Source: Terriglobia bacterium (GTDB lineage Bacteria; Acidobacteriota; Terriglobia; Bryobacterales; Bryobacteraceae). From it: a stretch of 49,682 bases of DNA. Numbering within the stretch: position 1 is the stretch's first letter; every line of letters begins with the position of its first letter. A program made the translations under genes and the position numbers. The stretch is taken from NCBI GenBank assembly GCA_020073615.1, contig JAIQEX010000036.1, positions 1 to 49,682 of the forward strand, in the 5' to 3' direction. This document shows, in pieces, positions 5,434-35,277 of this stretch. The notes beneath the pieces were generated by a model. That model had not been told where the DNA came from. It worked only from the letters and a program-made list of their open reading frames with translations, and ran no database searches.

Positions 5434-6456
5434 CTATTTGTCGAACGAGATGGTGGCGTCGGAAGAGAACTTCTGGTAGCCGCGGAACTCGACCTCGTTC
5501 TTGTGGGACAGGAGTCCGGTTCCGAGATGAATTTCGGCGCGCAGCGGGAGCAGGTACTGACGGCCGCCGACATCGGTGAAGTCGTAATCGAGCAGCGAGG
5601 TCGCTTTCTGCACCGGGAATTTCGGTGGGATGCTGTCCGCTTCCGCGGCGATGCGGACCACCATATGGCTGTCGCGATCGATGTACACGTACCCATGCTG
5701 ACCCACTAAGGCGGTCGCATGTGCTCCCCAAGCCGTACCGAAATCCATGCGGTAAGTCGCATCGAAGATCGAGATGCGGAAGAAGTAGACGTGGGTCTGC
5801 CGACCGCGAAGATTGGTCCAGCGATTCCATTCGAACACGGTCTTGGAGGTGGGATCGAAAACCTGACGCAGGAGACTTCCGAATTCGCCTTTGGTGACGG
5901 CGCCGCCGGCCTCCTCGTAGGTTTTCATCACGGGCCGCCCGTTGACCGAGACCAGCTTGTAATCCTCCTTCCGCTCGAAATAGGTGAGCTTGAGGAGCAG
6001 TGTGTCGGTCAACCGCCAGTTGTCCTGACCCTTGAGGTCGCGATATCGCCGCACCACCTCGGTGCAGATGAAGTCGGGCAGCGAGTCTACGTAGTTGAGC
6101 GAGTTGTCGCGGGCTGCCTCCCAAACGCGCGACTGTTCTTCGGCCGAGGGCGGCGGCATCTCGCGCGCGGCGGGCAGCGCAGCCGGCTTGGGGAGGGTTC
6201 GGGAGGCGTCGCGCAGGCGCTCGAGCTCGGCCACGGTCCGCGGACCGGCGCCCTCGATCCGCAGATCCTCGATGGTGCCGTCGTCCACCCGCTCGCTCGG
6301 CCTCATCTTGTGGAGCGCCCTGGCGACGTCCTGGTCCGGCTGACCCCGCGCGATCGCCGAGCGCACCAGTAACACGATCTCGCCCACCGGGTTGCCGGCC
6401 GATGCCGCGCCCGCGAGCGAAACCGCCAGTAGCGCGATGCCGATACGCCCGCACAT
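5434..6456 (-). CDS. Secreted protein of unknown function, lipoprotein-carrier-like fold possible
   Basis: A 340-residue exported protein. The ATG at 6456 begins a clear signal peptide (hydrophobic core IALLAVSLAGA, likely cleavage after ASA at residues 18-20). Residues 20-110 are helical and charged. Residues 115-340 alternate strands with many aromatic residues, such as LPDFICTEVVRRYRD and TYRMDFGTAWG, reminiscent of the outer-membrane-lipoprotein-sorting type of beta half-barrel seen in many acidobacterial secreted proteins. No catalytic motif is seen. It is 60 bases upstream of gyrA on the same strand. A hexamer TATAGA lies in the 20 bases upstream of the ATG and may be part of a promoter. 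Function is unknown. Confidence 0.65.
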   Translation of the reverse strand: MCGRIGIALLAVSLAGAASAGNPVGEIVLLVRSAIARGQPDQDVARALHKMRPSERVDDGTIEDLRIEGAGPRTVAELERLRDASRTLPKPAALPAAREMPPPSAEEQSRVWEAARDNSLNYVDSLPDFICTEVVRRYRDLKGQDNWRLTDTLLLKLTYFERKEDYKLVSVNGRPVMKTYEEAGGAVTKGEFGSLLRQVFDPTSKTVFEWNRWTNLRGRQTHVYFFRISIFDATYRMDFGTAWGAHATALVGQHGYVYIDRDSHMVVRIAAEADSIPPKFPVQKATSLLDYDFTDVGGRQYLLPLRAEIHLGTGLLSHKNEVEFRGYQKFSSDATISFDK

Positions 6457-6548
6457 ACATCCACTATAGAGTCTTCCACGAATCCCGGTGACCTCAGTCA
6501 CCGACTCCGCGGGCGGCGCGCCCCACAATGGAGGGCAGAGGTCATGAC

Positions 6549-7061
6549 ATGCATCCCACCGAAACTCTCAGCCAGGAACACCGGGTGATCGAAGCCCGGC
6601 TCGACGCGCTCGAGGAACAGATCCGGCTCGCCGATGCCGGCCAGCCTTTTCCGCGCCGCTTCTTCGATGAGGCGCTGGACTTTTTCCGCAACTGTGCCGA
6701 CGGCTGCCACCACGCCAAGGAAGAGAACCTGCTGTTCCCGCGCATGAAGGAGCGAGGCGTGCCGGAGCGCGGCGGCCCCATCGGCGTGATGCTGGCCGAG
6801 CACGACCAGGGCCGCGCCTGCCTGAAAGCGGTCCGTGAGAATCTGGACGCCGCCGAACGGGGCGACCCGGAAGCGCGGCGCCAGGTTTTCGGCAACGCTG
6901 CCTCCTATATCGAATTGCTGCGCCAGCACATCTACAAAGAGGACAACATCCTGTTCCGCATGGCGAACATGGTGCTGCAACCGGACGACGTGGCCGAGCT
7001 CACCAAGGAATTCGCCACGGTGGAAGTGCCGGAGCGCTTCCAGGCCGTCGCCACAGTCTGA
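6549..7061 (+). CDS. Hemerythrin-like HHE cation-binding protein
   Basis: A 170-residue four-helix bundle of the hemerythrin HHE family, which binds a non-heme di-iron centre and acts in oxygen, nitric oxide or iron sensing and storage. Candidate ligands are His11 (QEHRVIE), His55 and Glu59 (HHAKEENLLFP), His85 (AEHDQGR), and His127 and Glu131 (HIYKEDNILF). The ATG at 6549 was preferred over one at 6528 because a GAGG ribosome binding site precedes it at the right distance and the later start matches the family N terminus. It is transcribed divergently from the secreted-protein gene at 5434-6456. The partner and substrate are not apparent. Confidence 0.88.
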   Translation: MHPTETLSQEHRVIEARLDALEEQIRLADAGQPFPRRFFDEALDFFRNCADGCHHAKEENLLFPRMKERGVPERGGPIGVMLAEHDQGRACLKAVRENLDAAERGDPEARRQVFGNAASYIELLRQHIYKEDNILFRMANMVLQPDDVAELTKEFATVEVPERFQAVATV

Positions 7062-7141
7062 GGACGTTGGCCTGCACAGCCTCTTCCCGGGTACAATCGG
7101 TTGGGCTGCCACGCGCCCGCGCGGACGAAAGGAGCAAATCC

Positions 7142-7309
7142 ATGAGCGGCGGGGACCTGCCTCCGATTGCGCCGCTGGGTACAACCGAGGCGGGCAGAGG
7201 GGTTCATGTGGTCTGCAGTCCGAAAGCCGAGTACCTCGCCATCATTACCGCCTATTTGCCCGAGGCGGACGAGTGCGATGCGGAGCTCAGAATCAGGAGG
7301 CGCCCGTGA
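7142..7309 (+). pseudogene. C-terminal remnant of a DUF4258 toxin-like protein
   Basis: A 55-codon frame whose second half (GVHVVCSPKAEYLAIITAYLP, residues about 20-40, followed by an acidic turn and RIRRRP) matches the C-terminal strands of the DUF4258 family as I know it. Full members are about 90-110 residues with an N-terminal helical half that is missing here. A good ribosome binding site, AAAGGAG, lies 7 bases upstream of the ATG, so a short product could still be made. Its TGA overlaps the GTG start of the YgiT-type zinc-finger gene, the standard arrangement of such toxin-antitoxin pairs. I read it as a decayed toxin; it could instead be a shortened functional version. Confidence 0.5.
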
Positions 7310-7518
7310 AGTGCATCCACTGCCAGGGGAAGATGAAGAGGGCTCACGCGCCCTTTCACATCGACCGCAAAGGGCATCACCTGTCGCTCGAAGCGGTACC
7401 GGCATGGGTCTGCCATCAGTGTGGCGAGTCCTACTTTGTGGAACGCGAAGTTAAGACCATTCAGCGTCTTCTTCTACAACTGGACAAACAAACGGCGAGC
7501 CTGGCTTCGGTCGCCTGA
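7306..7518 (+). CDS. YgiT/MqsA-type zinc-finger protein, putative antitoxin
   Basis: A 70-residue protein starting at a GTG that overlaps the upstream stop (GTGA). It has two CxxC pairs (residues 3-6, CIHC, and CHQC near residue 39), which in the MqsA N-terminal domain bind one zinc ion. The ESYF segment and the following amphipathic helix are also typical of YgiT-type fingers. The DNA-binding helix-turn-helix of full-length MqsA is absent, as in most short members of this group. The coupled start suggests it is the antitoxin of the DUF4258 gene just upstream. Confidence 0.75.
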   Translation: MKCIHCQGKMKRAHAPFHIDRKGHHLSLEAVPAWVCHQCGESYFVEREVKTIQRLLLQLDKQTASLASVA

Positions 7519-7613
7519 CAGCGAGCCTCTGTCAGCCGCTCGCACGGATCTGTGCGGGGCGTGCCGGGCAACCCGTATCCCTGCCGAGACCCCCGTGTGG
7601 AGCGCACCGCTCG

Positions 7614-8450
7614 TCAGCGCACGCCGGGGCGCGCGTACGGGCTGCCGGGTTTCCAGCGAGGGCGTTGCGGAGCATCGGCCAGGGCTTCGACCACGCGGGC
7701 GAAGAAGTCGTTGAAGCGGGCGGCGGCGGTGGGGTCCCAGGGCTGTTTCAGGTCGTCGGCCGGGCTGTGATAGCGTTCAGCGTACCAGCGGCGGTAGACC
7801 GCTTCGTCGGGCGATCCCTTCTCATATCCGAAGACGAAGCCCACGGCGGGCACGCCGATCTGCATGAAGCTGTAGTGATCGGAGCGGCGCAGCAGGTTGC
7901 GCTCGGGCTCGGGATCGGGCTGTATGCCGATGCCCATCGCCGCGGCCACCTGCTTCACCGTGTCGCCCAGAGTGGATTCATCCAGCGCGAGCGTGGTGAG
8001 CAGCTTCAAAGGAAAGATGGGCCGAAGCTGGTCCAGGTTGATGTTGGCGACCATGCGCTCCGGGGCGATGGTGGGGTGCGCGGTGAAGTATTTCGAGCCG
8101 AGCAGGCCCTTCTCCTCCCCGGTGACTACGCAGAACAGCAGCGAGCGTTTGAGCTTGCGGCCGGCATCGTGGAGCCTTTCGGCGAAGTCGATGAGGGTGG
8201 CCACGTAGGCCGCGTCGTCGAACGCGCCCTGGTAGTAGCCGGATTCGCCCGCCGGTTTGAGACCGGCGCGCTCGAACTCCGCCACCACATAGCGCGCCGC
8301 CCGGCGATAGCCGTCGCTCGCCGTGTCGCGGCCCTCCATCTTGTCGTTGGCCAGCGCCGCGACGTGCGACCACCAGCGGCGCGTAGCGTCGTTGGGCTCG
8401 GTGGCGAACAGGGCGCAGCAGAGGAACGCGAAGACGATGCGATGCCGCAT
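7614..8450 (-). pseudogene. M28-family zinc peptidase with internal deletion, probably inactive
   Basis: A 278-residue exported protein clearly from the M28 metallopeptidase family, whose members are usually near 500 residues. The N-terminal part (DKMEGRDTASDGYRRAA) and the C-terminal catalytic part are present. The latter holds GAFDDAA with the bridging Asp, GEEKGLLGS with the catalytic Glu112 and ligand Glu113, NLD with Asp140, and YHSPADD with His229. Between residues 74 and 75 (near base 8228) the sequence jumps from the segment before the PA domain straight to the bridging Asp. The PA domain and the first zinc ligand (the His of the HxD motif) are missing. The reading frame is kept. A signal peptide begins at the ATG at 8450. 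Inactivity is inferred from the lost ligand. Confidence 0.75.
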
Positions 8451-8482
8451 CTGTCGAGCCTATCACGCCATCCCGGCGCGTA

Positions 8483-9220
8483 CTACGGCTGACGCGCGGT
8501 CAACCTTGCGGTGCCGGTCTGCGCGGGATCGGTCTGGATGGCCAGCACTTCTTTGCCGCCATTCACCAGGATGCCGCGGAGCTGGATGGGAGTCTCGGTT
8601 TCGAAATAAAGCATGACGAAGCAGTCGGGTTGCAGCTCGTAGGATCCGTCCCACTTGCTGTTTTCCTGCGTCAGGGAGAGGTTGCCGTCGCCATCCGCTT
8701 CGACCACACCTTTCTCGGAGACCGACTTGCGGGCGCCGTCAGGCGCAAACGGCGTGGACGCTCCCGCCAGGGCGAAGTCGAAGCGGCCGCGCCATGGCAC
8801 GTCTTTGCAGGTGTCGAAGGTGCGGGCCATCACGCCGCGGCCTCCGGCGCCGGGATCGGTCTGGTGGAAGGCAACCCGGCCGCTGCCGGGCGTCACCGTG
8901 CCCGCGAACTGCTGCAACCCGCCGGAATCGTCTTGCAGGCTCCAGGTAAGGGTGCAGTCGCGATGAAACTCGTAGCTGCCGGTGACCGGGTTGCCGAGAA
9001 AGAAGCCTTTGAAATTGACCGAGGAATACCCGCTGAGCTTGCCTTCGGCGGCGAATACCAGCCGGCCCACGCTAGCGATCGCCGCCGGGCTGCCGGAAAT
9101 CGTCGTCGTGCCGGAGAGCAGAAAGCCATACGGCCCGTCCAGATCCTTCGGGTCGCAGCCCCCCGCTGCGTGTGCAGCAGCACAAAGAAGAACCGGCACG
9201 ACACAACACGCCCATCGCAC
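8483..9220 (-). CDS. Secreted two-repeat beta protein of unknown function
   Basis: A 245-residue protein with a signal peptide (MRWACCVVPVLLCAAAHA). The mature part contains two related halves. The first runs from DLDGPYGFLLSG through GSYEFHRDCTLTWSL. The second runs from WRGRFDFALAG through GSYELQPDCFVMLYF. Each half has one conserved Cys after GSYE plus a Cys at its start, suggesting one disulfide per half. The fold is probably a pair of small beta barrels or sandwiches. No enzymatic motif is visible and I do not recognise a named family. The gene is followed on the same strand by the damaged M28 peptidase, with a 32-base gap. Confidence 0.6.
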   Translation of the reverse strand: MRWACCVVPVLLCAAAHAAGGCDPKDLDGPYGFLLSGTTTISGSPAAIASVGRLVFAAEGKLSGYSSVNFKGFFLGNPVTGSYEFHRDCTLTWSLQDDSGGLQQFAGTVTPGSGRVAFHQTDPGAGGRGVMARTFDTCKDVPWRGRFDFALAGASTPFAPDGARKSVSEKGVVEADGDGNLSLTQENSKWDGSYELQPDCFVMLYFETETPIQLRGILVNGGKEVLAIQTDPAQTGTARLTARQP

Positions 9221-9269
9221 GATACCATGCTACAGCACGCAGGCGTCCGCGCGCGGCACGCGGTTGGGT

Positions 9270-9524
9270 CTAATAATACCGGGGAAGGAAAGACCGTCGC
9301 AGTTCCCTGGCTTCGCGGCGCGATTCAGCGAGCGACTCGCGCATTTCCTGCCGCCGTTCGTGGCGGAACTGGCGAGCCTCGTGCCGCGCCTGCCGGGCTT
9401 CGCGGAGTGCCTCCACCCGTTCACGCCGGGCTTCCGCCCTTGCCCACCTGGCCTCCGCGCGGTAATGCCAGCAATCGGCGAACGCCGGCGCCGCCAGCAG
9501 CAGGGCGGCCAACACAAATTTCAT
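9270..9524 (-). CDS. Small secreted Arg/Glu/Ala-rich helical protein
   Basis: An 84-residue protein with a signal peptide (MKFVLAALLLAAPAFA) followed by a single Cys and about 60 residues of almost pure Arg, Glu, Ala, Gln and His, for example ARRERVEALREARQ. This should form one long charged alpha helix. A GGAG ribosome binding site precedes the ATG at 9524. The mature part resembles periplasmic Spy- or CpxP-like helical proteins only in composition, so I assign no function. The gene sits next to the secreted gene at 8483-9220 on the same strand. Confidence 0.5.
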   Translation of the reverse strand: MKFVLAALLLAAPAFADCWHYRAEARWARAEARRERVEALREARQARHEARQFRHERRQEMRESLAESRREARELRRSFLPRYY

Positions 9525-9591
9525 CGATGTGCTCCCTTCACCGTAGATACTCCGGAAAAAGGAATTGGTTACGCGTCATCGCGCGATTTTT

Positions 9592-9759
9592 TCAAGACCG
9601 CGCGAAGCGCAGCACGGTGCCCAGGGTGCCGGCGCTCACGGCCTGCAAGACGTGGATCATCTTCTGCCACAGCCGCGCGGTGAGGAACGCATCTCCGCAC
9701 GCTGTGGCGATCGCCGGGTTATCCAGCGAATGGGCGGTGCCTCCCATCCCCTGCGCAGC
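9592..9759 (-). pseudogene. Broken copy A of the DnaQ-like exonuclease 3' end
   Basis: This stretch repeats the end of the exonuclease gene at 11604-12266. Read on the minus strand it encodes GGTAHSLDNPAIATA, matching residues 129-143 of the intact protein, then jumps to GDAFLTARLWQKMIHVLQA and ends TLGTVLRFARS, matching residues 188-220. About 43 residues between these blocks are deleted in frame, including the His of the third exonuclease motif. Base similarity continues a little past the coding match, to about 9759 (CTGCGCAGCAC). There is no start and no upstream part, so this is a relic. The rest of 9525-9867 holds nothing else I can identify. Confidence 0.8.
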
Positions 9760-9867
9760 ACCGAACATAAGACCGCTGGCGCCTGGCTCGGGGTGCTGTT
9801 GTGGGGAACGAACCAGATTCACTATCTGGATCATGCACATAATTAGAAAGGGAATGGTGAGACTTTT

Positions 9868-10959
9868 ATGTCGATACCTCAACTGCCGATCGTGATTTTG
9901 TTGGGTGCCTTGCTCTTACCCGAGGGCGCGCATGCACAGAAGTCCACGACGAATCGTTTTGCCCGACAGGCTGATCTGGTGGTAGTAGCGACCGTGGTTT
10001 CGCTCGACGCGCATGTCACCGGGGCTTCCATACATCTCCAGGTGAAACGGATTTTAATGGGATCGCTGAACGGCGGCTCGACACTAGTCGCGGAAGCTGG
10101 GGACGGCTCGCAGGCGGCGGAATCCGATAGCAGCAATTGCGGGATTTGGTACCTGAAGCGTGGGAACGAGAAACTCAGTGTAATTCCGGTCGCGCAGGGA
10201 CCTCCCGCGGCATCTCTGCGCACGTGGCTGGCATCCTGCGCGACCCCCCGGCTCTATCCTTACGCGGCGCAGTCTGGTGCCGACGATAAGATTCTGAGCG
10301 AGATGGCGGAATCGGCGGAACTCTCGCAGGGAAAGTACCTTCAGGCGACCCATCTGTACAGGGCACTGGCGGGCAGCGGTTCTCCTGTGGAGGCCCAGGT
10401 AATCAAACGCCTGGCTTCTTCGGAAATTCCGGAATTGCGCGCTGTAGCTTTCGGATTGCAGATTAGGAACGGGGACGTAGCCGGGCTCAGCCACGCGGAA
10501 GCCGAGATTCCAGGTTTGGGGAGTTCGGAGGCGAAAGCGCTCTATGCCATCACGATCTCGGATTTTCCGGCGCCTGAAGGCGTCCCCATACTGGGCCGCC
10601 TTGCCACGGGTGCGACCAAGGCGGAATTGCCATTCCAGCGGGCGGCGGCCAGTGCGTTGAAGGCGATCCACAACCCGGTGGCTTTGAATTTCCTGTACGT
10701 GCTGCTCGACCATCCGGACAAGGAGGTTCGTGAAAACGCGGTTTCGGGCTTTTCGCAATTTCGGCTCGGAATGCCGGCCGGGCTGAAGGGCGTAGATTTC
10801 GATCACGCCCTGATCGCCGCCACCTACCCGGGCCGCAAGACCTCGTCCGCTGAGGATCGCGAGGCGATTCACCTGGGGCGGTTCGCGTCCGCGGAGGAAG
10901 AAGCCGCGCTTATCAACTTCTACAAGAGCTGGTGGCCCAAGAATTCCGGCCGGTTTTAG
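9868..10959 (+). CDS. Secreted HEAT-repeat-like protein of unknown function
   Basis: A 363-residue exported protein with a signal peptide ending near AHAQ (residue 24). Residues 25-120 look like a beta-rich domain (FARQADLVVVATVVSLD) with a pair of Cys residues. Residues 150-320 are helical hairpins that resemble HEAT repeats, clearest in the segment LLDHPDKEVRENAVSGF. Such repeats usually bind other proteins. It lies on the plus strand between two broken copies of the exonuclease 3' end and is less GC-rich than the surrounding genes, which suggests it arrived as an insertion. Function unknown. Confidence 0.6.
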   Translation: MSIPQLPIVILLGALLLPEGAHAQKSTTNRFARQADLVVVATVVSLDAHVTGASIHLQVKRILMGSLNGGSTLVAEAGDGSQAAESDSSNCGIWYLKRGNEKLSVIPVAQGPPAASLRTWLASCATPRLYPYAAQSGADDKILSEMAESAELSQGKYLQATHLYRALAGSGSPVEAQVIKRLASSEIPELRAVAFGLQIRNGDVAGLSHAEAEIPGLGSSEAKALYAITISDFPAPEGVPILGRLATGATKAELPFQRAAASALKAIHNPVALNFLYVLLDHPDKEVRENAVSGFSQFRLGMPAGLKGVDFDHALIAATYPGRKTSSAEDREAIHLGRFASAEEEAALINFYKSWWPKNSGRF

Positions 10960-10971
10960 TAGGCAACTCGC

Positions 10972-11055
10972 TTACGCACGCGCAAAGCGCAGCACCGCGC
11001 CCAGGGTGCCGGCGTTCATGGCCTGCAGGGCGTGGATCGTCTTCTGCCACAGGCG
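10972..11055 (-). pseudogene. Broken copy B of the DnaQ-like exonuclease 3' end
   Basis: About 84 bases repeat the last 84 bases of the exonuclease gene (11604-11687) with roughly six mismatches. Read on the minus strand they encode the tail LWQKTIHALQAMNAGTLG, then AVLRFARA and a TAA stop. Similarity breaks sharply after CAGGCG at 11055. What follows (11056-11169) matches nothing I recognise. This copy is closer to the intact gene than copy A, so it is probably a later duplication. Confidence 0.8.
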
Positions 11056-11169
11056 CGAGCTACGCGCCGCCGCGGCTTCGCGCGCGAAACCGCCACAGGC
11101 CCCAGATGCGGCTGTGCCGGCTGCCCGAGGGCGACTTCAACAATCAGCGCGAATTCTCGCGCCTCGGGA

Positions 11170-11589
11170 TTATGTGTCCATCCGTTCGACCCATTGAGCG
11201 CGCCATGCGGGAGGCACGAATGGTTCCGCAAAGTACTGTGTTTCCCGCGCAACCTTGTCGTCCCTGAACTCCATGATGCTCACGGTGTAGGACGGCTTGC
11301 CGTCATATGTCAGGATGAATTCGGTGATCCAGAGATCACCGCCGCCAATGATTCGTCGGACAGCAAACCGCTTCTTGCTCGGCTGACTAGCGCGTTGGTT
11401 CTGTATGTTGCGTCGACCGCGGGTTCGCTCGCCCGACTGCGGGTATTCCAGCACCGCGTCCTCGTGATAGATGCGGTGCTCCGTTTCAAAATCGTTGGCA
11501 TCGGACGCCGCCCAATGCCGATCCAGTGCCGCACGGATCTCTTGATCCCGCACTCCAGAATACTGCTCCTTCTTTTGTTGGTCGTTCAT
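11170..11589 (-). CDS. NTF2-like (SnoaL/DUF4440-type) protein
   Basis: A 139-residue cone-shaped alpha/beta protein of the NTF2-like superfamily. The evidence is the opening helix with AALDRHWAASDANDFE, the following YHEDAVLEYPQSGE strand-turn, a central RRIIGGGDLWITEF strand and the closing YFAEPFVPPAWR. Members bind or isomerise small polar molecules, and many have no known ligand. The acidic and His residues in the pocket region (HEDAVLE) would fit an enzyme, but no specific activity can be assigned. It sits between the intact exonuclease gene and broken copy B. Confidence 0.7.
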   Translation of the reverse strand: MNDQQKKEQYSGVRDQEIRAALDRHWAASDANDFETEHRIYHEDAVLEYPQSGERTRGRRNIQNQRASQPSKKRFAVRRIIGGGDLWITEFILTYDGKPSYTVSIMEFRDDKVARETQYFAEPFVPPAWRAQWVERMDT

Positions 11590-11603
11590 CTTGAACCTTC
11601 AGA

Positions 11604-12266
11604 TTACGCCCGCGCGAAGCGCAGCACCGCGCCCAGGGTGCCGGTGTTCATGGCCTGCAGTGTGTGGATCATCTTCTGCCACAGGCGGGCGGTGAGAAAC
11701 GCGTCGTCGAGCGCGTGGTGGGCCTGCTCGAAATCCAGATGGTAGGAGGCGGCTACGGTCGGCAGATCGAGCGTTTCCAGTTGATGGCCCAGGCTCTCGG
11801 AGTGCTCGGTGTGCCGCAGGATCCAGCGGTGCACGCGCGCCGTATCGATCGCCGGGTTATCCAGCGAATGGCCGGCGCCGCCGATCTCCTTGCGCAGCAC
11901 GTTCAGGTCGATGGCCACGAAATGCCCCACCAGAACCGCGCCCTGGAGGAAGGACCGCAACTCCTCCAGCACCTGCGCCATCGGCTCTCCGTTCTCCACG
12001 TCGCAGGGCCGCAGCCCGTGGATCAACACGCCCGCTCCGGGCACCGCCACGCCCGGATTCACCACCCGGTAGAACTGCTCGTTCAGGCGGATACTGGCGC
12101 CGTCCATGGCGATGGCGCCGATGGAGAGCAGGCGGTTGCGCCGGCGGTCGAGCGAGGTCAGCTCGGTATCGAGGACCACGTAGCGCAAGGAATCGAGCGG
12201 AGCGTTCTTCGCCGGCGCCGGTGCGGCGCTCTCTTTAGCGCGCGAAAATCCGAGCCAGCGCCGCAT
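11604..12266 (-). CDS. DnaQ-like 3'-5' exonuclease of the acetate-gene neighbourhood
   Basis: A 220-residue DEDDh exonuclease. All catalytic positions are visible: DTELT (Asp33, Glu35), GHFVAIDLNVL (Asp120), and HHALDDAF (His183, Asp188). It is a stand-alone protein, not the polymerase III epsilon subunit itself, and lacks the clamp-binding C-terminal tail. Its start is one base from the end of the DUF294 gene, so the two are likely translated together. DnaQ-like plus DUF294 pairs next to acetate genes are known in several proteobacteria, but their joint role is unclear. Its 3' end has been copied twice downstream (9592-9759 and 10972-11055). Confidence 0.85.
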   Translation of the reverse strand: MRRWLGFSRAKESAAPAPAKNAPLDSLRYVVLDTELTSLDRRRNRLLSIGAIAMDGASIRLNEQFYRVVNPGVAVPGAGVLIHGLRPCDVENGEPMAQVLEELRSFLQGAVLVGHFVAIDLNVLRKEIGGAGHSLDNPAIDTARVHRWILRHTEHSESLGHQLETLDLPTVAASYHLDFEQAHHALDDAFLTARLWQKMIHTLQAMNTGTLGAVLRFARA

Positions 12267-12267
12267 T

Positions 12268-14205
12268 TCACCGCCCCAGCTGGGACCACTCCGGAGACCG
12301 GAATCTCGCTTCGATCTGCGACTGTATTCGCGCGATGGCTTGGAACGCCTGCTTCATCGTGCCCTTTTGCAGATTGGTCAGCGTCTCGGGCCGGATGTAG
12401 TTGCCGGGCGGCTTGCCGGCGCGCGCCTGCCGCATCTGGCTCTCCAGGCGCAGCAGCGTCAGGAATTCGAAGCTGGCGCGCAAGTCTCTGAGCAGCGCCT
12501 GGTCCTGGCCGGGCAGCGATTCCAGCGCCGCCAACCGGTCCACCGTATTGGTGTGCGCCACGCCCGCGTCCAATGCCAGCAGGCGCGCCGCGTTCACGAT
12601 CGGTCCCGTACCGTGCCGCTTGATATCGAGCTGATTCTTGTGTTCGCCCGTCCGCTCCACCACCAGCGTCCGGAAAAAACCGAGCGGCGGTTTGTGTTCG
12701 ATGGAGACGTAGGCTAGCACCGATTTGAAAAAAGCCCCGGTCTGGAGCAGTTCCCGGGTGTGGGCCGCCAGCGACTCGTAGAGCGCGAGGTCGCCGGCCG
12801 CCGGGCGCATGTCGAAGAAGATCAGCGCATCCTCGGCGGTGCGGCGCGTGGCGCCGGTGATCCATGCCGCAAAGTAGCTCTGCCACACGGCGAGCGGCTG
12901 GCGCCATTGCGGGTTGCCGGCCATGTAGTTGCCGTCGCAGGGCGGGTAGCCGCAGCGCGCCAGCGCGTCCTGGGCAAACGCGGCGAGGCGGGTGAAGTAG
13001 TCTTCCACTTCCGGCCGTCCCGCGCCGGCGTCGGCATAGATTAGGGCGTTGTCCTGGTCCGTCTTGAACGTCTGCTCGGCGCGGCCTTCGCTGCCCGCCG
13101 CGACCCAGCAGTAGGGGACGGGCGCGCGTCCCAGTTCGATGCGGGCCAACTCCAGGATCTTGCCCATCACGCGGTCGTTCACCTCGGCCACAACGCGCGT
13201 GATGTGGCTGGCCGTCGCGCCCTCGCGCATCAGCAGCGGCAGCAACTCACCAATGCGCTTCTGCGCCGCCGCCAGCCCGTCGATGGTCTGCTGCTGCTCC
13301 ACGTGCCGCACCAGGTTGAGGGGCGACTTTCCCTGCAGCAGCATCAGGTCGTGATTGCTGAGTACGCCCACGGGCTGTCCGCCCTCGGTCACCAGCACGT
13401 GATGGATATCGTGGCTGAGCATGGCCACCAGCACCTGGAACACAATCTGCCCGCGCTCGACGGCGACCACCGGCGAGCTCATGATGGTATCCACGGGCCG
13501 GTCGAGCGGCGTGCCGCGCGCCACGACCTTGGCCGCGAAATCCTTGTCGGTCACAATGCCGGCGGCCACCCCGTCGGCGTCCACCACGAACAGGCACGTC
13601 GCGCCCCCCGCCGACATGATGCGCGCCGCCTCCTGGATGGGCGTGTCCCGCGTACAGACCACCGCACGGCCGGAGACCACATCGCCCACCGAAAGCGAGT
13701 ACAAGAGCCGCTCGCCATCGCCCATCAGGTGCGTCTGCTCGCGCAGCTCGTTCAAGCTCCGGTCCAGGTAGCGGGTCACCGACGTGCGGAGAAAATAGTC
13801 CGCCACTTCGGTATGGCGGGACATGAGGTCCTGCACGCGCTCGGCGGGTATGGTGTAGCAGAGCGTGTCTTCGAGCGCGCTCACGTCCAGCCGGGCCATA
13901 TCGCGGCCCATGAGCGAGAGCAGGCCGAAGATTTCGCCTTCGCTGCGCATGTCGAGGATCAGCTCCTTGCCCACCGCGGTGCGGAAGGAGAGCTTCACGC
14001 CCCCTCGCTGCACGATGTAGAGCGAGTCGGCGGCCTTGGGACCCGCGCGGAGAATCACCGTGTCCTTGGGGAAATACTCCAGGGTCATGGTGTTGGCCAG
14101 CGCGGCCAGCGCGGAGCGGGGCAGAAACTGAAAAGGCGGCACGTGCTCGAGGAAAGCAACCACCGCGCCGGTAACAATCGAACTGGAGGAAGGAGGATAG
14201 CCCAT
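12268..14205 (-). CDS. cNMP-binding/CBS/DUF294 nucleotidyltransferase-like protein
   Basis: A 645-residue cytoplasmic protein with four parts in order. Residues 20-140 are a cyclic-nucleotide-binding domain (YFPKDTVILRAG through RSEGEIFGLLSL). Residues 175-290 are a CBS pair. Residues 330-480 are a GlnD-like nucleotidyltransferase domain with GSEGRAEQTFKTDQDNALIY at 371-390. The rest is a helical DUF294 C-terminal domain. The domains imply that it senses a cyclic nucleotide and an adenosine ligand, and may transfer a nucleotide to a partner, perhaps the neighbouring transporter or ligase. A GTG at 14223 with AAGGAA upstream is an alternative start. It follows actP by about 60 bases and overlaps nearly end-to-start with the exonuclease. 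Confidence 0.85.
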   Translation of the reverse strand: MGYPPSSSSIVTGAVVAFLEHVPPFQFLPRSALAALANTMTLEYFPKDTVILRAGPKAADSLYIVQRGGVKLSFRTAVGKELILDMRSEGEIFGLLSLMGRDMARLDVSALEDTLCYTIPAERVQDLMSRHTEVADYFLRTSVTRYLDRSLNELREQTHLMGDGERLLYSLSVGDVVSGRAVVCTRDTPIQEAARIMSAGGATCLFVVDADGVAAGIVTDKDFAAKVVARGTPLDRPVDTIMSSPVVAVERGQIVFQVLVAMLSHDIHHVLVTEGGQPVGVLSNHDLMLLQGKSPLNLVRHVEQQQTIDGLAAAQKRIGELLPLLMREGATASHITRVVAEVNDRVMGKILELARIELGRAPVPYCWVAAGSEGRAEQTFKTDQDNALIYADAGAGRPEVEDYFTRLAAFAQDALARCGYPPCDGNYMAGNPQWRQPLAVWQSYFAAWITGATRRTAEDALIFFDMRPAAGDLALYESLAAHTRELLQTGAFFKSVLAYVSIEHKPPLGFFRTLVVERTGEHKNQLDIKRHGTGPIVNAARLLALDAGVAHTNTVDRLAALESLPGQDQALLRDLRASFEFLTLLRLESQMRQARAGKPPGNYIRPETLTNLQKGTMKQAFQAIARIQSQIEARFRSPEWSQLGR

Positions 14206-14267
14206 GCCGGCCGATTCCGCCACGGTGTTCGCAGCTTCCTTATGATAAGTGAACGGGCCGTGGCATC

Positions 14268-15845
14268 TTACGCATCCAGGCCCGTGGCCGCCCGGACTTG
14301 CAGTTCGGTGTACCTGGCTTCGGCTTCCGGATCCTGCCGGCTTGCCAGTGTGCCCAGGAACGCCGCGAGGAAACCCACCGGAATGCTGACAATGCCGGGA
14401 TTCTCCAGCGGGAACAGCGGCTGCATCTGGATGAGGTGGCGGGCCGTTTTGGCGGCCGTGGGCGGGTCCAACCCCATGATGCTGGGGCTGACGGCGATCA
14501 ACGCCAGAGAACTGATCAGACCGGCTGCCAGGCCCCAAACCGCGCCTTCGGTGGTGAACCGCTTCCAGAATAGCGAGAGCACGATCACCGGCAGGTTGGC
14601 CGACGCCGCCACCGCAAAGGCCAGCGCCACCAGGATGGCGACGTTGAACGCCGGACCGAGAACGATGGCCGCCGCGATGGCCACTGCGCCCACCAGGAAC
14701 GCCGTGATGCGGGCCACCTTGACCTCCGCCTGCGGATTGCGCAGGTGCCCGTGGTGCAGCACGTTGGCGTAGAAGTCGTGCGCAAACGAGGTGGAGGCGC
14801 TGATGGTCAGCCCCGCGACCACCGCCAGAATCGTGGAGAAGGCGATTGCGGAGATGAAGGCGAAGAGGACTTCGCCGCCCAGGTTCCGCGCCAGCAGCGG
14901 AGCGCTCATGTTGGTGCCGCCGTTGTTGCCGATGAAATCCTTGCCCAGAATGGTGGCCGCGCCGAAGCCCAGGAACGTGGTCATGATATAGAAGGAGCCG
15001 ATGATCGCCATGGCCCAGACCACGCTGATGCGCGCCGTTTTGGCATCCGGCACAGTGTAAAACCGCACCAGGATATGGGGCAGTCCGGCGGCGCCGAAGA
15101 TCAGCGCCAGCCCCAGCGAGATCAGGTCCAGGGCGCCATAGGGGGGCTTGTAGCGCAGACCGGGGTTCAGGAAGTTGACCACCTTGTCGCCGTCCTTCAC
15201 GTGCGCGATGGCGTCGAAGAAATTGCCGAAGCTGAAGTGGAAGTGCGCCATCACCAGAATACTCAGCAGGATGGCGCCGCTCATCAGCAGAATCGCCTTG
15301 ACGATCTGCACCCAGGTGGTGGCCAGGATCCCGCCGAACACCACGTAGGAGACCATGAGCAGGCCGGCCATCACCACCGCCCAGTTGAAGGTGATCCCCG
15401 AGCCCTTCAGCAGCAGGGCCACCAGGGTTCCGGCGCCCACCATCTGCGCAATCATGTAAAAGGCGCCGACCGTGAGCGTGCTCAGCGCCGCCATGGCCCG
15501 CACCGGGCGCGGGCGCAGCCGGTAAGCCAGCACGTCCGCCATGGTGTATTTTCCGGCGTTGCGCAGCGGCTCGGCCACGATCAGCAGTACGGTCAGGTAA
15601 GCCACCAGCCAGCCGACCGAATACAGGAAACCGTCATAGCCCTGGAAGGCGATAATGCCCGCGATACCGAGGAACGAGGCGGCGCTCAGATAATCGCCGG
15701 CTACGGCGATCCCATTCTGCCAGCCGGTGATGCGGCCTCCGGCGGCGAAGTACGCACTGGCGCCGATGGAGCGTTTCGCCGCCCAGTAATTGATCGTCAG
15801 CGTGATGGCGAGGAACGCCAGAAACAGGACCAATGGCGGATTCAC
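14268..15845 (-). CDS. actP: Cation/acetate symporter ActP
   Basis: A 525-residue sodium:solute symporter with about 13 membrane helices, matching the ActP branch. It imports acetate and related monocarboxylates with a cation across the inner membrane. Supporting features are the N-terminal ASAYFAAGGRITGWQNGIA segment, GDYLSAASFLG with the family's conserved helix break, and the paired DUF485 gene. The start is a GTG at 15843-15845, directly after the DUF485 stop (TAA then GTG with no gap), so the two are translationally coupled. The GGGGAG ribosome binding site lies within the end of the DUF485 gene. Confidence 0.92.
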   Translation of the reverse strand: MNPPLVLFLAFLAITLTINYWAAKRSIGASAYFAAGGRITGWQNGIAVAGDYLSAASFLGIAGIIAFQGYDGFLYSVGWLVAYLTVLLIVAEPLRNAGKYTMADVLAYRLRPRPVRAMAALSTLTVGAFYMIAQMVGAGTLVALLLKGSGITFNWAVVMAGLLMVSYVVFGGILATTWVQIVKAILLMSGAILLSILVMAHFHFSFGNFFDAIAHVKDGDKVVNFLNPGLRYKPPYGALDLISLGLALIFGAAGLPHILVRFYTVPDAKTARISVVWAMAIIGSFYIMTTFLGFGAATILGKDFIGNNGGTNMSAPLLARNLGGEVLFAFISAIAFSTILAVVAGLTISASTSFAHDFYANVLHHGHLRNPQAEVKVARITAFLVGAVAIAAAIVLGPAFNVAILVALAFAVAASANLPVIVLSLFWKRFTTEGAVWGLAAGLISSLALIAVSPSIMGLDPPTAAKTARHLIQMQPLFPLENPGIVSIPVGFLAAFLGTLASRQDPEAEARYTELQVRAATGLDA

Positions 15846-22024: not shown

Positions 22025-23884
22025 TCAGAACGTAAAGATAGGACCGATCTCGGTGCGGATGTCGTGCCACTCGCGGGCCGGCACGCCGCGCAAGGTAAAC
22101 AGGCCGCCCACGCTGTTGGCGGTGTCATTGGCGGCGCGGGTGCGGTACATGGATTCTTCGGCCGCGAAGGTGACTAGCGAGTTGAGCTTCCAGAACAGGG
22201 TGAAGACCGCCATGTCGTTCTTGGCGCGCCCTCCGCCGCCCAGGCGCCGCGCGTCGCGCGCGGGCACCGTGTCGAGACTGTAGTGCAGGTTCGCCGTCCA
22301 GCCACCGCTGCGTCCCGCCGGGTTGGCGTGGAACCAGCGCGAGAGCGGCAGACCCAGATCCGTAGAGAATCCCTGGGTGCGCACCGGACGCTCGGGCGCG
22401 ATGGTTGGCACGCCGTTCTGCAAGCCGAAAACGACGTTGGAGGCGCCGTCGATGGAAGGCACGGTCGTCGTGCTGGTCAGCCCGAAGGTGTCGTTGAAGT
22501 TGGAATACAGGCCGCCCACGAAGTAGAAGCGCAGGTCCGTGCCATGGTAATACTTACCCGTCCAGGTGATGGCTCGCGTGGGCAGTTGCAGCTCGACGGT
22601 CATGCCCCAGCGGTCCGAGGAAACCTCGGCGCCGCCGGGGAACGCCGACTTGAACGCCGCCGGCACGGCGGCGGCCGTCACCAGCGCCTTGCGGCTGGCC
22701 TGCACGCCGCTCACGATGAACTGCGCCGGCGCCACGCCGGGAGCTTTATCGAGCTGCCACTGGGCGACGATACGCCCCTGCACTTCCGGACGCCCGGAAT
22801 CGGCGCCCTGCCGTTCCCCGTACCCCAATTGATCGGCCACGTTGGCCGGCGTATTGCCGAAAGCCGGCAGCGTGATCGCGAACTCGGGCAGGATTTTGAA
22901 GTTCCGCGATCCGCCGAAGCTGTGGATCACGCCCGTCCGCACCTGCGGCAGGCGCTCGTAGAGCGTTCCGAAGCCGAGGCCCAGGCCGGTGGTCTCGATG
23001 ATGTTCGGGAGGGTGGAGGAGCCGAACGGCGTCCAGTCCTGGCCCACCAGCAGGAATACCGTATTGTTGGCGTCGACCATGTGGTCAATCCGGCCATAGG
23101 CGAGCCGGATGGAAAACTCGCTCGAACGGATGGACGAGATGTTGCGGTTCAGCGGGCGCGTGAAGTCGCCCTCGAAGTCCGCCTCAAAGCGGCCCGTGAT
23201 CACCGTTTTCGGAGAGTCGAGCCACTCGAACAGCGTCCCCATGCGCATATTGCGCGCGCGGACGTGGAACTCGGGATCCACATTCGGTCCCGTGTCGCCG
23301 TTCAGATACGGCAGCGGCATATCGGTGGCCGAGGGCGAGGAGCTGTCGTAGATCGCGCTGGCTTTGATGAACCCGTACGGCTTGAGCCGCGCTCCGTTGC
23401 TGATGCGGATGTCGGGAATCAGCCCCTCTCTCTTGGGCGGATCCACCGGCAGGACGCGGAGCGGCGCGTAGGCGGCCACTACCGCGGGCGGCTTGGGAGG
23501 AGCGGGCGCCGCCGCTTGCGCCGGAGCCTGCGCCGCGGGGGCGGGCATCGGCGAAACCACCGCCAGCGCGGCGGGTTTCTCCGCTACGGCGGGTCTCGCA
23601 CCTGCCGGCCCCAGCACGTCCTGTAGCTCGGCGTCCGTCAGGAGGCCCTTCTTGCGCAGCAACTGGGCCAGCGTCGCGCGCTCGCCAACGACCGTGCCGG
23701 AAGATGTGAGCTCCACCAGCTCGTCCGTCGTAAACAGCCCTTTCCCTGCCAGGACGCGGACTAGCGGATCTGAAATCTTGCTGAGAGGCACATTGGGAGG
23801 ACTACTCTCGGCCGCGGACGGCTGTGCGGCAAGTAGCCCGGAAAACGCCAGAATCACGATCACACCCTGAAGCGCTGATTTCAT
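22025..23884 (-). CDS. Outer-membrane beta-barrel porin
   Basis: A 619-residue outer-membrane protein. Residues 1-21 are a signal peptide. Residues 35-95 hold two similar motifs, LAGKGLFTTDELVEL and LRKKGLLTDAELQDVL, a helical domain found before porin barrels in several phyla. Residues 100-145 are a Pro/Ala-rich linker. The remainder alternates amphipathic strands (GFIKASAIYDSS, RFEADFEGDFT) and ends in Phe (GPIFTF), the usual recognition signal of the barrel assembly machinery. The substrate is not known, but tight linkage to prpE suggests it lets carboxylates through the outer membrane. Its upstream region carries two perfect palindromes. Confidence 0.85.
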   Translation of the reverse strand: MKSALQGVIVILAFSGLLAAQPSAAESSPPNVPLSKISDPLVRVLAGKGLFTTDELVELTSSGTVVGERATLAQLLRKKGLLTDAELQDVLGPAGARPAVAEKPAALAVVSPMPAPAAQAPAQAAAPAPPKPPAVVAAYAPLRVLPVDPPKREGLIPDIRISNGARLKPYGFIKASAIYDSSSPSATDMPLPYLNGDTGPNVDPEFHVRARNMRMGTLFEWLDSPKTVITGRFEADFEGDFTRPLNRNISSIRSSEFSIRLAYGRIDHMVDANNTVFLLVGQDWTPFGSSTLPNIIETTGLGLGFGTLYERLPQVRTGVIHSFGGSRNFKILPEFAITLPAFGNTPANVADQLGYGERQGADSGRPEVQGRIVAQWQLDKAPGVAPAQFIVSGVQASRKALVTAAAVPAAFKSAFPGGAEVSSDRWGMTVELQLPTRAITWTGKYYHGTDLRFYFVGGLYSNFNDTFGLTSTTTVPSIDGASNVVFGLQNGVPTIAPERPVRTQGFSTDLGLPLSRWFHANPAGRSGGWTANLHYSLDTVPARDARRLGGGGRAKNDMAVFTLFWKLNSLVTFAAEESMYRTRAANDTANSVGGLFTLRGVPAREWHDIRTEIGPIFTF

Positions 23885-23900
23885 GAATGACTTCCCTTTC

Positions 23901-23916
23901 CGGCCCCGCGGGGCCG
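23901..23916. promoter_or_regulatory. Perfect palindrome in the porin leader
   Basis: CGGCCCCGCGGGGCCG is a 16-base perfect inverted repeat immediately upstream of the porin ribosome binding site (GGGAAG). In RNA it would form a very stable stem next to the start codon. It may control translation of the porin or shield the message end; no known regulator is recognised. Confidence 0.45.
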
Positions 23917-23940
23917 TCTATTCCTTCGGTTTCAGTTCTT

Positions 23941-23960
23941 GATAACAGAACTCTGTTATC
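23941..23960. promoter_or_regulatory. Candidate operator for the carboxylate operon
   Basis: GATAACAGAACTCTGTTATC is a 20-base perfect palindrome (9-base arms around AC) about 57 bases upstream of the porin ATG. It is AT-rich in a GC-rich genome and lies where the promoter of the porin-prpE-OFA-acs genes would be, which is typical of a binding site for a dimeric regulator. No regulator gene lies beside it. The same half-site was not seen upstream of cstA, the OFA gene or acs. Confidence 0.55.
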
Positions 23961-24103
23961 TGAAAGTACTTTGGCCTTGGGGTACCCCGGCGTGCAACTG
24001 AATCGCCAATCCGGGAATCCGCGTCTGCCGGACCGGCGCCCACCCCTGGCCGCCCGAATCCGGAACCGTGCCCCCAATCCCCGTCACTGCCCCATGCCGC
24101 CCC

Positions 24104-24120
24104 CTGACGCGGAACGTCAG
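24104..24120. other. Inverted repeat between cstA and the porin gene
   Basis: CTGACGCGGAACGTCAG has 6-base arms around CGGAA, about 95 bases after the cstA stop. It could be the hairpin of a factor-dependent cstA terminator or a second regulator site; it has no T run. The remainder of the 329-base gap between the two genes (23885-24213) holds no gene that I can support. Confidence 0.3.
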
Positions 24121-24213
24121 ATAATCAGGCGGCCGTACGAAAACAAGACGTCAGAAACGCAGACCATACCACCCCATGCGCGGAGAGCCCCTCTCCTGCA
24201 TTTCTTACCAACG

Positions 24214-26067
24214 TCAGCAGCACCCCATTTTAATTTCGCCCGTGGCGGTTACCGGCTCGCCGAATGCGTCCGGAGGCGCCGGCGCGCCGTTCAGCACCGC
24301 AATCCACCGCCGCACCGCGTCGAACACCACCAGCACCACGCCCACGATGAAGATGGTCATCAGCAGCGAATCCAGGTAGCCTGTAAAGACCTGGCCCGGC
24401 CGGGCAGTGAGCGGCCAGAAAATATTCTTGATGGAAAGCACCCCGGCGGTTACCGTCGTCACCCCGACGAAACACATCGGTATCGCCGTGATGGGCGCAT
24501 ACCTGGCCTTCCCCATGTTGATGAGAAAGGTCGTCGTGATGGCCAGCGCGATAGTCGCCAGCAACTGGTTACCGGTGCCGAACAGCGGCCAGATGGTCGA
24601 TATATTCCCGGTGTAAATCAGGTATCCCCAACCGAGCACCACGAAGAACGTGGTGATCAGGTTGCCCGGCAGCCACGCCGTGTTGCTGAAATTCCGGTTC
24701 GCCTTGCCCATGAGCTCCTGCAAAACATACCGCGCCACGCGCGTTCCGGTATCGACCGTCGTCAGGATGAACAGGGCCTCGAACATGATCGCATAGTGGT
24801 ACCAATAGGCCATCAGGCGGTCCATCCCGGGCAGCCCGCGGAAGATCTGCGCCATGCCCACCGCCAGCGACACCGCTCCGCCCGTGCGCCCCGCCAGTTT
24901 TTCGCCCACCTCCTGCGAAAACGTATCGAGGTTGACGGTGTGCAGGCCGAGTTTGCCGAAGGCGTCGGCGGGGCTGTTGATGGCGAAGTAGTCGCCGGGA
25001 TGCATCGAGGTCGCGGCGATCAGCGCCAGCACCCCCACCAGAGATTCGCAGACCATGGCCCCGTAGCCGATGAACCGGGCGTCGGTCTCCTGGTCCAGCA
25101 TCTTCGGCGTCGTTCCGGAAGACACCAGCGAGTGGAAGCCGGAAATCGCGCCGCACGCGATGGTCACGAACAGGAACGGGAACAGCGGGCCTTTGATGAT
25201 CGGCCCGCCGCCGTGCGTGAACTGGGTAAACGCGGGAAACCTGATATCCGGATGGACGATGAAGACGCCCACGATCAGAATCGCGATGGTGCCCAGCTTG
25301 ACGTAGGTGGAAAGATAATCGCGCGGCTCGAGCAGCAGCCACACGGGCAGCACCGAGGCGATGAAGCCATAGGCCGCCATCAGGAAGGTAATTTGATGCG
25401 GAGTGAAGGTCAGCGCTCCGGCGGCGCCGGTCGCGGCGAACCAGTGCCCGCCGACCACCGCCGAGATCAGCAGCACCACGCCGAAGATGCTCGGGCCCGT
25501 GACCGTGATGGCGCCCGCGTGGCTCTTGAACATCCAGAGGCCCATGATGATGGCGATGGGAATCGTCGAGCCGATGGTGAACACGCCCCAGGGACTGTTG
25601 GCCAGCGCGTTGACCACCACGATCCCCAGGCCGGCCAGCGTCACCAGCAAAATGAAGAGCACCGCGATCATGGTCACCAGGCCCGCGAAAGGACTGATCT
25701 CCGTGCGCGCAATTTCCGCCAGCGACCGGCCGCGATGGCGGATGGAAGCCACCAGCACCGTGAAATCCTGGACACAGCCCGCCAGCACGGCGCCGACGAG
25801 CAGCCACAGAAAACCGGGCGCAAAGCCGAATTGGGCCGCCAGCGTCGGTCCCACCAGCGGACCGGCGCCGGCGATGGCTGCGAAATGATGGCCGAACAGC
25901 ACCCACTTGGGCGAGGCCACATAGTTATGACCGTCCGCGAAGGCATGCGCCGGCGTAGGGCGGCGGTCGTCCAGAGCCATGGCCTTGGCCGCAATGAAGG
26001 CGCTGTAATAGCGATAGGCGATAGCGTAGATACACAGAGCGGCCAGCAGAACCGGGAAAGTGTTCAT
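24214..26067 (-). CDS. cstA: Carbon starvation protein CstA, peptide/pyruvate transporter family
   Basis: A 617-residue inner-membrane protein with many helices and clear CstA features: YVASPKWVLFGHHFAAIAGAGP near residues 50-70 (first 20: YVASPKWVLFGHHFAAIAGA), then FVTIACGAISGFHSLVSSGT in the middle. CstA proteins import peptides or pyruvate under carbon limitation. The ATG at 26067 has GGAGG just upstream. It lies on the same strand as the carboxylate operon but is separated by a 329-base gap, so it may be a separate unit. Its presence adds another starvation or overflow-carbon uptake function to the block. Confidence 0.93.
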   Translation of the reverse strand: MNTFPVLLAALCIYAIAYRYYSAFIAAKAMALDDRRPTPAHAFADGHNYVASPKWVLFGHHFAAIAGAGPLVGPTLAAQFGFAPGFLWLLVGAVLAGCVQDFTVLVASIRHRGRSLAEIARTEISPFAGLVTMIAVLFILLVTLAGLGIVVVNALANSPWGVFTIGSTIPIAIIMGLWMFKSHAGAITVTGPSIFGVVLLISAVVGGHWFAATGAAGALTFTPHQITFLMAAYGFIASVLPVWLLLEPRDYLSTYVKLGTIAILIVGVFIVHPDIRFPAFTQFTHGGGPIIKGPLFPFLFVTIACGAISGFHSLVSSGTTPKMLDQETDARFIGYGAMVCESLVGVLALIAATSMHPGDYFAINSPADAFGKLGLHTVNLDTFSQEVGEKLAGRTGGAVSLAVGMAQIFRGLPGMDRLMAYWYHYAIMFEALFILTTVDTGTRVARYVLQELMGKANRNFSNTAWLPGNLITTFFVVLGWGYLIYTGNISTIWPLFGTGNQLLATIALAITTTFLINMGKARYAPITAIPMCFVGVTTVTAGVLSIKNIFWPLTARPGQVFTGYLDSLLMTIFIVGVVLVVFDAVRRWIAVLNGAPAPPDAFGEPVTATGEIKMGCC

Positions 26068-27794: not shown

Positions 27795-27849
27795 GCCGCT
27801 GCCGGGGTGTCTCGCCTCGCGCCGCGCGATAATAGCCGGAAGGGCACTC

Positions 27850-29598: not shown

Positions 29599-29633
29599 TC
29601 GTGCGGCGGCCCATTTCGCGGCGTGCCGTGGTG

Positions 29634-29639
29634 TACAAT
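29634..29639 (+). promoter_or_regulatory. Possible -10 element before rpoD
   Basis: TACAAT, within GTGGTGTACAATG, sits about 40 bases before the chosen rpoD start and just after dnaG. It matches the -10 consensus at five of six positions and has a spaced upstream G-T-G context, but no good -35 hexamer. It could give rpoD its own promoter. A similar GGTACAATC precedes the DUF4258 remnant near 7090. Confidence 0.3.
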
Positions 29640-29676
29640 GATCTCGATTCTTCCCCGCGGGGGATACGGGGCTTCA

Positions 29677-33236: not shown

Positions 33237-33297
33237 AGCATCAGCGTCGCACAACGAATCGTCTGCACGCTGCCCGTGGCCCGTTCGTCAATCCATT

Positions 33298-34905: not shown

Positions 34906-34941
34906 GCAGAACGTATCCGGCATTCATGTCACAATAAACAT

Positions 34942-35277
34942 GTGGACGTCGAGAGAACGATGGAGTTTATCCTGGAGCAACAGGCCAGACTGAGCGTGCA
35001 ACAGGAGAAGTCGGCGGAGCGACACGACAGGGAGATGGCGGGCATCCGGAACCAACTGCGGCGCGCCGTCGAATTGAGTGTGCGCGAAGCGCGCAGCGAG
35101 CGCCGGCGGCGTCAGGAGGCCGATGCGCGCCTGGAGGAAGCCGATGCGCGCCAGCAGGAGGCCGATGTGCGCCAGCAGGAGGCCGATGTGCGTCTGGAGG
35201 CCATGATCGACCGGATCGGACGGAAACTGGAGGGACTGATCGACGCCCTGCGCCACGGCGGCAACGGGGCTCATTAG
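34942..35277 (+). CDS. Coiled-coil protein, tandem paralogue 1
   Basis: A 111-residue charged helical protein without signal or membrane segment. It starts at a GTG (34942) with the conserved opening MDVERT. Near its centre, four seven-residue repeats run in sequence (EADARLE, EADARQQ, EADVRQQ, EADVRLE), giving a predicted coiled coil of residues 8-90. The ending LEGLIDALRHGGNGAH is almost identical in the second copy. A CACAATAA sequence upstream may be the -10 region. Proteins of this type are multi-copy in some Acidobacteriota to my knowledge; function is unknown. It follows the secretin gene by 36 bases and may share its transcript. Confidence 0.65.
   Translation: MDVERTMEFILEQQARLSVQQEKSAERHDREMAGIRNQLRRAVELSVREARSERRRRQEADARLEEADARQQEADVRQQEADVRLEAMIDRIGRKLEGLIDALRHGGNGAH

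Follow-up and report, generated by a model that had tools for sequence, protein, structure and literature searches.

Copies of a gene's 3′ end alternate with accessory genes behind a DnaQ-like exonuclease gene in a Terriglobia bacterium

How does one gene end come to lie three times in a row, with unrelated DNA behind each? The question is raised by a 49,682-nucleotide contig of a Terriglobia bacterium of the family Bryobacteraceae (JAIQEX010000036.1, assembly GCA_020073615.1), which was analysed at its full length and is called the window here. In it the 3′ end of a DnaQ-like exonuclease gene recurs twice downstream of the gene, and an NTF2-like gene and a gene for a HEAT-repeat protein lie between the three ends (Table 1). 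It appears that accessory genes, of which one is clearly foreign, were attached in succession behind this gene end, and that each addition left a dead copy of the end as a scar.

The repeated gene end and what lies between its copies

When the window was compared with itself by BLAST, 11604-11687 matched 10972-11055 (copy 2) at 92.9% identity (E 3.5e-29), and two parts of the gene matched the more distant copy 3, 11610-11705 to 9598-9693 at 86.5% (E 6e-26) and 11834-11900 to 9696-9761 at 85% (E 2e-13). Because these are the parts that match, copy 3 corresponds to ~297 bases at the gene's 3′ end from which 126 have been lost in frame. A sequence-only reading of the window had described the near copy, with about six mismatches, correctly. 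The longer degenerate version that it placed at 9592-9759 does recur, but extends over 9592-9761 with the internal deletion, and the six mismatches apply to the near copy only. Aligned as that reading had proposed, the copies fall into one register (9598-9702, 10978-11082 and 11610-11714) at 93% and 86% identity. All have the same orientation and keep the reading frame and a stop codon (TAA, TAA and TGA), also as claimed. A search for the gene end in the whole 6.96-Mb assembly, likewise suggested there, found these three places and no other.

The homology of the copies to the exonuclease gene ends at the stop codon: three mutually unrelated sequences follow the gene, copy 2 and copy 3, and no repeat in the window runs past the stop codon. 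At the 5′ side the copies differ: measured from the gene end, copy 2 starts at 84 bases and copy 3 at ~297. As a control, 500 random 84-base stretches of the window were searched, and for 13 of them a second match was found that spans >=60 bases with >=80% identity; among 12 of these 13 matches that were listed, four were the copies described here and eight a separate repeat at 34.9-35.6 kb. Since random stretches match so rarely, and then mostly through these two repeats, chance does not account for the copies, and the three-copy repeat is confirmed.

We compared 237 genomes of the family, which include a single relative of the same genus (G001) and, from one of the other genera, G248; having just one same-genus relative, two fragmented assemblies and simple gene calls sets limits to what can be concluded. 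G001 has one copy of the exonuclease gene (85% amino-acid identity) and its end once, and neither the NTF2-like gene, the HEAT gene nor the protein encoded at 8483-9220 was found in G001. The match between the window and G001 ends at 8465, and the G001 contig (C133) ends in low-complexity DNA ~255 bases past the exonuclease gene, where the downstream junction is not readable. The sequence-only reading had held that an old static duplication would be simpler if relatives carried the same three copies without variable cargo; G001, with its single copy and unreadable downstream DNA, does not show that arrangement. Close relatives of the exonuclease occurred only in G001 and G248 (52% identical in the latter), and the exonuclease, the CBS/DUF294 protein and an acetyl-CoA synthetase are 52-75% identical to their G248 counterparts.

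The NTF2-like gene behaved differently. It was matched in 22 of the 237 genomes, this one included (E<=1e-15), and its protein is 91-96% identical in seven genomes from five other genera. Such identity across genera, together with absence from G001, demonstrated on sequence grounds that the gene was acquired horizontally and moves between genera, and here it sits directly behind the exonuclease stop codon. At 11 loci from other genera, homology to the acquired block ended on the gene side at 11601-11605 in seven, at 11609 in an eighth and within the block in the other three; on the far side it ended at 11148-11175. Outside the block the window shares nothing with the other NTF2 loci, several of which share a following DoxX-like gene among themselves. 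That the NTF2 gene is a unit which brings the repeat along was rejected, a flanking gene-end repeat being found at none of 12 other NTF2 loci, some of them cut by contig ends. Relatives of the HEAT gene are only 27-32% identical and occur in eight other genomes of the 237 (E<=1e-20), so that a foreign origin of this gene is presumed rather than shown. The earlier description of an NTF2-like gene and a lower-GC secreted gene between the copies agrees with the Pfam assignments (PF12680, SnoaL/NTF2-like, and PF13646, HEAT) and with third-position GC, which is 0.67 and 0.70 in these two genes, 0.79-0.88 in the larger neighbours (5434-9220 and 11604-14538) and 0.74 in the small open reading frame (ORF) at 9270-9524. 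The N-terminus of the HEAT-repeat protein is secreted-like, as judged by eye.

The copies also differ in age and constraint. Copy 3 is more diverged from the gene than copy 2, and all three informative sites in the last 84 bases place the gene beside copy 2, and copy 3 beside G001. On these grounds the distal event looks older, three sites being little evidence. Changes were then polarised with G001 as the third party, the branches of the window gene and of G001 being counted twice in the raw sums. At codon positions 1, 2 and 3 we counted 12, 15 and 11 changes in the displaced copies, 9, 2 and 15 in the genes and 15, 5 and 34 in G001. With the double counting corrected, third-position changes made up 11 of 38 in the copies versus 45 of 69 elsewhere (p 0.0005). 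The pooled changes are thus spread evenly over codon positions, revealing a neutral-looking decay of the displaced copies, taken together, without apparent coding constraint, as expected of dead scars; copy 2 alone has only three changes of its own. On the same evenness, the idea that the displaced ends are long-diverged functional xenologues was rejected. In an unpolarised count the synonymous rate was more than twice the non-synonymous rate in four of six pairs, which the constrained gene side can explain.

Similar layouts at other genes of the same genome

The scan of the same assembly covered 1.66 Mb in 67 stretches with 1392 ORFs, called by a simple GC-based script rather than a gene finder, and 1124 genes entered the count by side and end. 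An event was defined as a copy that covers <40% of the gene with its edge <=12 bases from the stop codon; rows of this genome were sorted by hand, and the same rule was applied by script in the controls. There were 58 rows with a 3′-end copy downstream, of which 15 covered <40% of the gene and six of these ended <=12 bases from the stop codon. The nine dropped rows were W and C190 (the same copies viewed from a neighbouring gene), L162 (a short tandem repeat), L170 (an identical stretch at a contig end), and L177, W 33115-34905, C8, C13 and C170 (not at a gene end).

The results revealed a gene, other DNA and a truncated end of that gene on the same strand at five of the 1124 genes, in six events, always downstream. 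Two events are the window's own; the window prompted the search, and the other four are independent of it. These four further genes (loci C5, C1, C134 and C190) have a downstream copy of 54-178 bases of their own 3′ end that ends at the stop codon (Table 1). In all six events the 3′ edge lies <=6 bases from the end of the stop codon, within a class preset at <=12 bases, and the copies are of unequal length (54-178 and ~297 bases). Gene homology between this genome and G001 likewise stops at the stop codon (to +6) at the window, C5 and C1. Among terminal partial copies generally, we found six of the 3′ end downstream and no independent one upstream, one clear and one weak of the 5′ end upstream, and none of the 5′ end downstream. 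The bias in side is 6 versus 0 (p 0.03), and the preference for the 3′ over the 5′ end was not significant (p 0.13-0.29). In the clear mirror case, C17, the 5′ end of a gene is copied together with its leader, over 184 bases (96%), upstream of the gene (68114-68297 and 68465-68647); with this and the weak case C8, 5′-end copies were too few to be judged the same phenomenon.

Control stretches gave no such event among 283 genes in 400 kb of another genome (G220), nor among 169 genes in 256 kb taken from further genomes of the family, some of it from G001 contigs. Compared with five of 1124 here the difference was not significant (p 0.33), and the controls are too small to call this genome exceptional.

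Table 1. Features of the window and the four further genes with a displaced copy of their own 3′ end
Feature	Position	Strand	Details
DnaQ-like (RNase_T/DEDDh) exonuclease gene, anchor	11604-12266	-	PF00929, E 4.9e-18; repeated part 11604-11687 (84 bases at the gene's 3′ end)
Near copy (copy 2) of the anchor gene's last 84 bases	10972-11055	-	stop codon kept; 92.9% identity
Far copy (copy 3) of the anchor gene end	9592-9761	-	last ~297 bases minus an in-frame 126; stop TGA
Acquired block with NTF2/SnoaL-like gene (11170-11589)	11149-11603	-	PF12680; starts directly after the exonuclease stop codon
Spacer of 93 bases, NTF2 block to near copy	11056-11148	-	no match outside the window among the loci compared for it
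Second cargo, 363-amino-acid HEAT-repeat protein	9868-10959	+	PF13646, E 9.3e-7; convergent with the exonuclease gene
Further DNA without G001 match, M28 peptidase to copy 3	8466-9591	-	ORFs 8483-9220 and 9270-9524
C5, lipase-maturation-factor-like gene			copy 178 bases, 88%; between: VapC-like PIN gene (below NCBIfam VapC cut-offs)
C1, MacB/FtsX gene			copy 149 bases, 96%; between: 1221-amino-acid protein, PD-Lambda-4-like
C134, amino-acid permease gene			copy 111 bases, 91%; between: partial PIN_3 match and 74-amino-acid ORF
C190, folC			copy 54 bases, 96%; between: TonB-type receptor, di-haem oxidoreductase among others

The large protein at C1 (L115 3362-7027) matched the candidate defence model PD-Lambda-4_A with residues 394-712 (E 1.7e-31) and had no match in Pfam or NCBIfam.

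Possible routes to the layout

We tentatively favour, with a confidence that falls a little short of even, a two-step insertion pile built behind the exonuclease gene by repeated single crossover in its 3′ end. Incoming DNA would carry part of the gene's 3′ end with other DNA behind it, the cargo thus standing behind the same gene already in the donor. As a circle, or as a linear fragment re-circularised by end joining, it would undergo one crossover with the resident gene end. This would leave an intact gene, then the newcomer's downstream DNA beginning where homology ends, at the stop codon, and then a 5′-truncated native end with the native downstream DNA. These features, and repeated stacking, are what the single-crossover model predicts. 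The HEAT cargo with copy 3 would have come first and the NTF2 cargo with copy 2 later, and the leftover gene ends, no longer maintained, would decay. The sequence-only reading had spoken of repeated insertion at, or stepwise duplication of, the gene's 3′ end, as happens at attachment sites. Repeated insertion is supported by the single end and missing cargo in G001, by the horizontal origin of the NTF2 gene and by the older look of the far copy; the attachment site did not survive, as described below.

A precedent comes from conjugation in Escherichia coli with a plasmid that carries a lacZ end, where, in the part of that report drawn on here, 56 of 60 Lac− clones yielded the product that indicates a partly duplicated lacZ end, the duplications being 109-950 bp long in 14 sequenced cases (PMC3240628). 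The authors' explanation is that a molecule with a shortened lacZ end, probably the result of degradation and subsequent re-circularisation, integrated by single crossover (PMC3240628). Ku is present in the genome studied here and in four relatives.

Several observations weigh against the single-crossover route. No donor with the order exonuclease then NTF2 was found among the family genomes, of which only G001 and G248 carry close exonuclease relatives, and the other NTF2 loci lack a flanking gene-end repeat, within the contig limits given above. At C134 and C190, G001 has the same DNA immediately behind the gene, over 315 and 103 bases respectively, so that the event at these loci is either older than the separation of the species or came about in another way; at C190 the shared DNA is followed by a 4.16-kb stretch without a counterpart there in G001. 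At C5, G001 has gene and fragment too, and sequence found behind the gene in this genome lies behind the fragment in G001. A similar copy, L126, has a repeat that runs ~37 bases past the stop codon; it was excluded from the count for this reason and because its gene reaches the end of the stretch. The model also does not predict a preference for 3′ ends, and 5′-end copies upstream, one clear and one weak, do occur (6 versus 2, p 0.29). The loci are not all recent, simple insertions.

The main rival, which would give the same end product, is break repair with a long target duplication: a break at the gene end leaves a long, staggered overhang, foreign DNA is captured there, and once the single strands are filled in, the overhang sequence stands on either side of the insert. 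We consider it unlikely, yet worth serious attention. It ends in an identical arrangement and accounts for the dead-duplicate look of the copies, the presence of Ku suits it as well, and the pattern has been described for restriction-modification genes of Helicobacter pylori (Nobusato 2000, as cited in passages of PMC1643837 and PMC3031569). It leaves unexplained why six events end <=6 bases from the end of the stop codon, unless selection favours insertion there, and overhangs of 84-300 bases are, in our judgement, long.

Somewhat less likely is a tandem duplication of the gene end and its downstream DNA, followed by loss and replacement of the intervening material. At C5 the G001 gene and fragment share a ~245-base segment downstream of both, an arrangement compatible with tandem duplication as well as with recombination at the gene ends that exchanged the cargo, and the post-stop DNA common with G001 at C134 and C190 would suit an old duplication. 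Against it stand the repeats of the window, none of which extends beyond the stop codon despite the 93% identity of copy 2, and the foreign NTF2 block.

We regard it as doubtful that small site-specific integrative elements accumulated at the 3′ ends of genes, as att-flanked islands that have lost their integrase. Such elements restore the gene, displace a truncated end and stand in tandem; one described case is PAISt at the 3′ end of bacA, with an 8-bp site, in the part of PMC4057263 drawn on here. In agreement with the earlier statement that no integrase is present, neither an integrase or transposase nor a tyrosine or serine recombinase domain was found among 37 of the window's ORFs scanned against Pfam. 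Furthermore, copies 2 and 3 start at different positions of the gene, the smallest interval is 548 bases, and five unrelated genes would need five specificities. The attachment-site reading was rejected on the lack of a recombinase among those ORFs, on the unequal 5′ boundaries (84 versus ~297) and on the similar pattern at four unrelated genes. In integrons, each cassette is followed by an attC site with the core sites RYYYAAC and GTTRRRY. Both were missing from the sense strand of all three copies, and an integron gene-cassette array was rejected. An artefact of draft assembly is very improbable: the assembly has 252 contigs and the G001 contig also breaks near the site, but the pattern recurs on several contigs, and since the copies differ by 7-14% they are not duplicated or collapsed reads.

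In a broader view, these bacteria might have an integrase-free means of collecting foreign genes, anchored on gene ends. The stop codons of ordinary genes would be a recurrent docking point for cargo arrays split by dead ends, between which homologous recombination could delete or swap cargo, much as in an integron array. We hold this broader idea to be improbable. The scars themselves matter because single foreign genes, toxin- and defence-type ones included, occur in bacterial genomes without a visible vehicle. Dead gene ends marking the insertion points would be readable scars from which the number, age and order of captures could be counted genome-wide, and through them the role of homologous anchoring in gene gain would become directly testable.

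Related systems and flanking sequence

A literature search for an earlier description, with subscription papers mostly outside it, returned only the kinds compared here. The nearest is insertion with long target duplication. As in the H. pylori case, accessory DNA lies between long, variable direct repeats of one host segment, with no need of a recombinase (passages of PMC1643837 and PMC3031569), and the cargo is of a selfish or defence type, restriction-modification there and PIN-domain genes and a PD-Lambda-4-like protein at three of the other loci here. An unduplicated relative exists for the window, G001 having one gene end and no cargo genes, whereas at C5 it has the fragment too. Unlike that case, as those passages present it, the repeats here are gene 3′ ends bounded by the stop codon and stacked two deep at one gene, and the empty site is unreadable at the window.

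The partial gene-end duplication that flanks the insert also resembles the single-crossover integration of shortened, re-circularised DNA, which was found beside homology-facilitated illegitimate recombination; that was a laboratory selection in E. coli, as the part of PMC3240628 drawn on here describes it, whereas our case is drawn from genomes alone. Transposed genes in Arabidopsis likewise lie between host-derived, often genic direct repeats, and both target duplication and insertion by recombination are discussed for them; the portions of that report considered do not say of the plant's repeats that they are gene ends with the stop codon as their limit (PMC2869330). Att-flanked islands and tandem accretion share the restored gene 3′ end, the displaced fragment and the tandem units; here, in contrast, no integrase was found, there is no common crossover point and several different genes are involved. 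Minimal mobile elements of Neisseria exchange cargo between conserved genes without mobility genes of their own, whereas here a truncated gene end remains as a scar.

The exonuclease gene is adjoined by a CBS/DUF294 gene (12268-14538), in this genome as in G001 and G248. Beyond the cargo, the M28 peptidase gene (7614-8450) lacks 645 bases, a multiple of three, that are present in G001 (C411 5306-5950), and the junction at 8229-8234 has a 6-base overlap. The separate repeat of the window is a tandem direct repeat (34866-35282 and 35290-35660; 76.6% over 418 aligned bases) that adjoins a secretin-like gene. Elsewhere in the scanned stretches, short-repeat arrays that are CRISPR-like in look lie at C13 (~27536-29741) and C130 (~23296-25946 and 54067-54251), with coordinates partly on the script's strand; the C13 array and the first of the two at C130 have a spacing of ~73-75 bases. 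Two dispersed repeats occur in both genomes of the genus, one of ~48 bases (L195 195-245, L198 587-636 and L194 6435-6485) and one of ~43 bases (L191 1757-1799 and L194 2355-2396).

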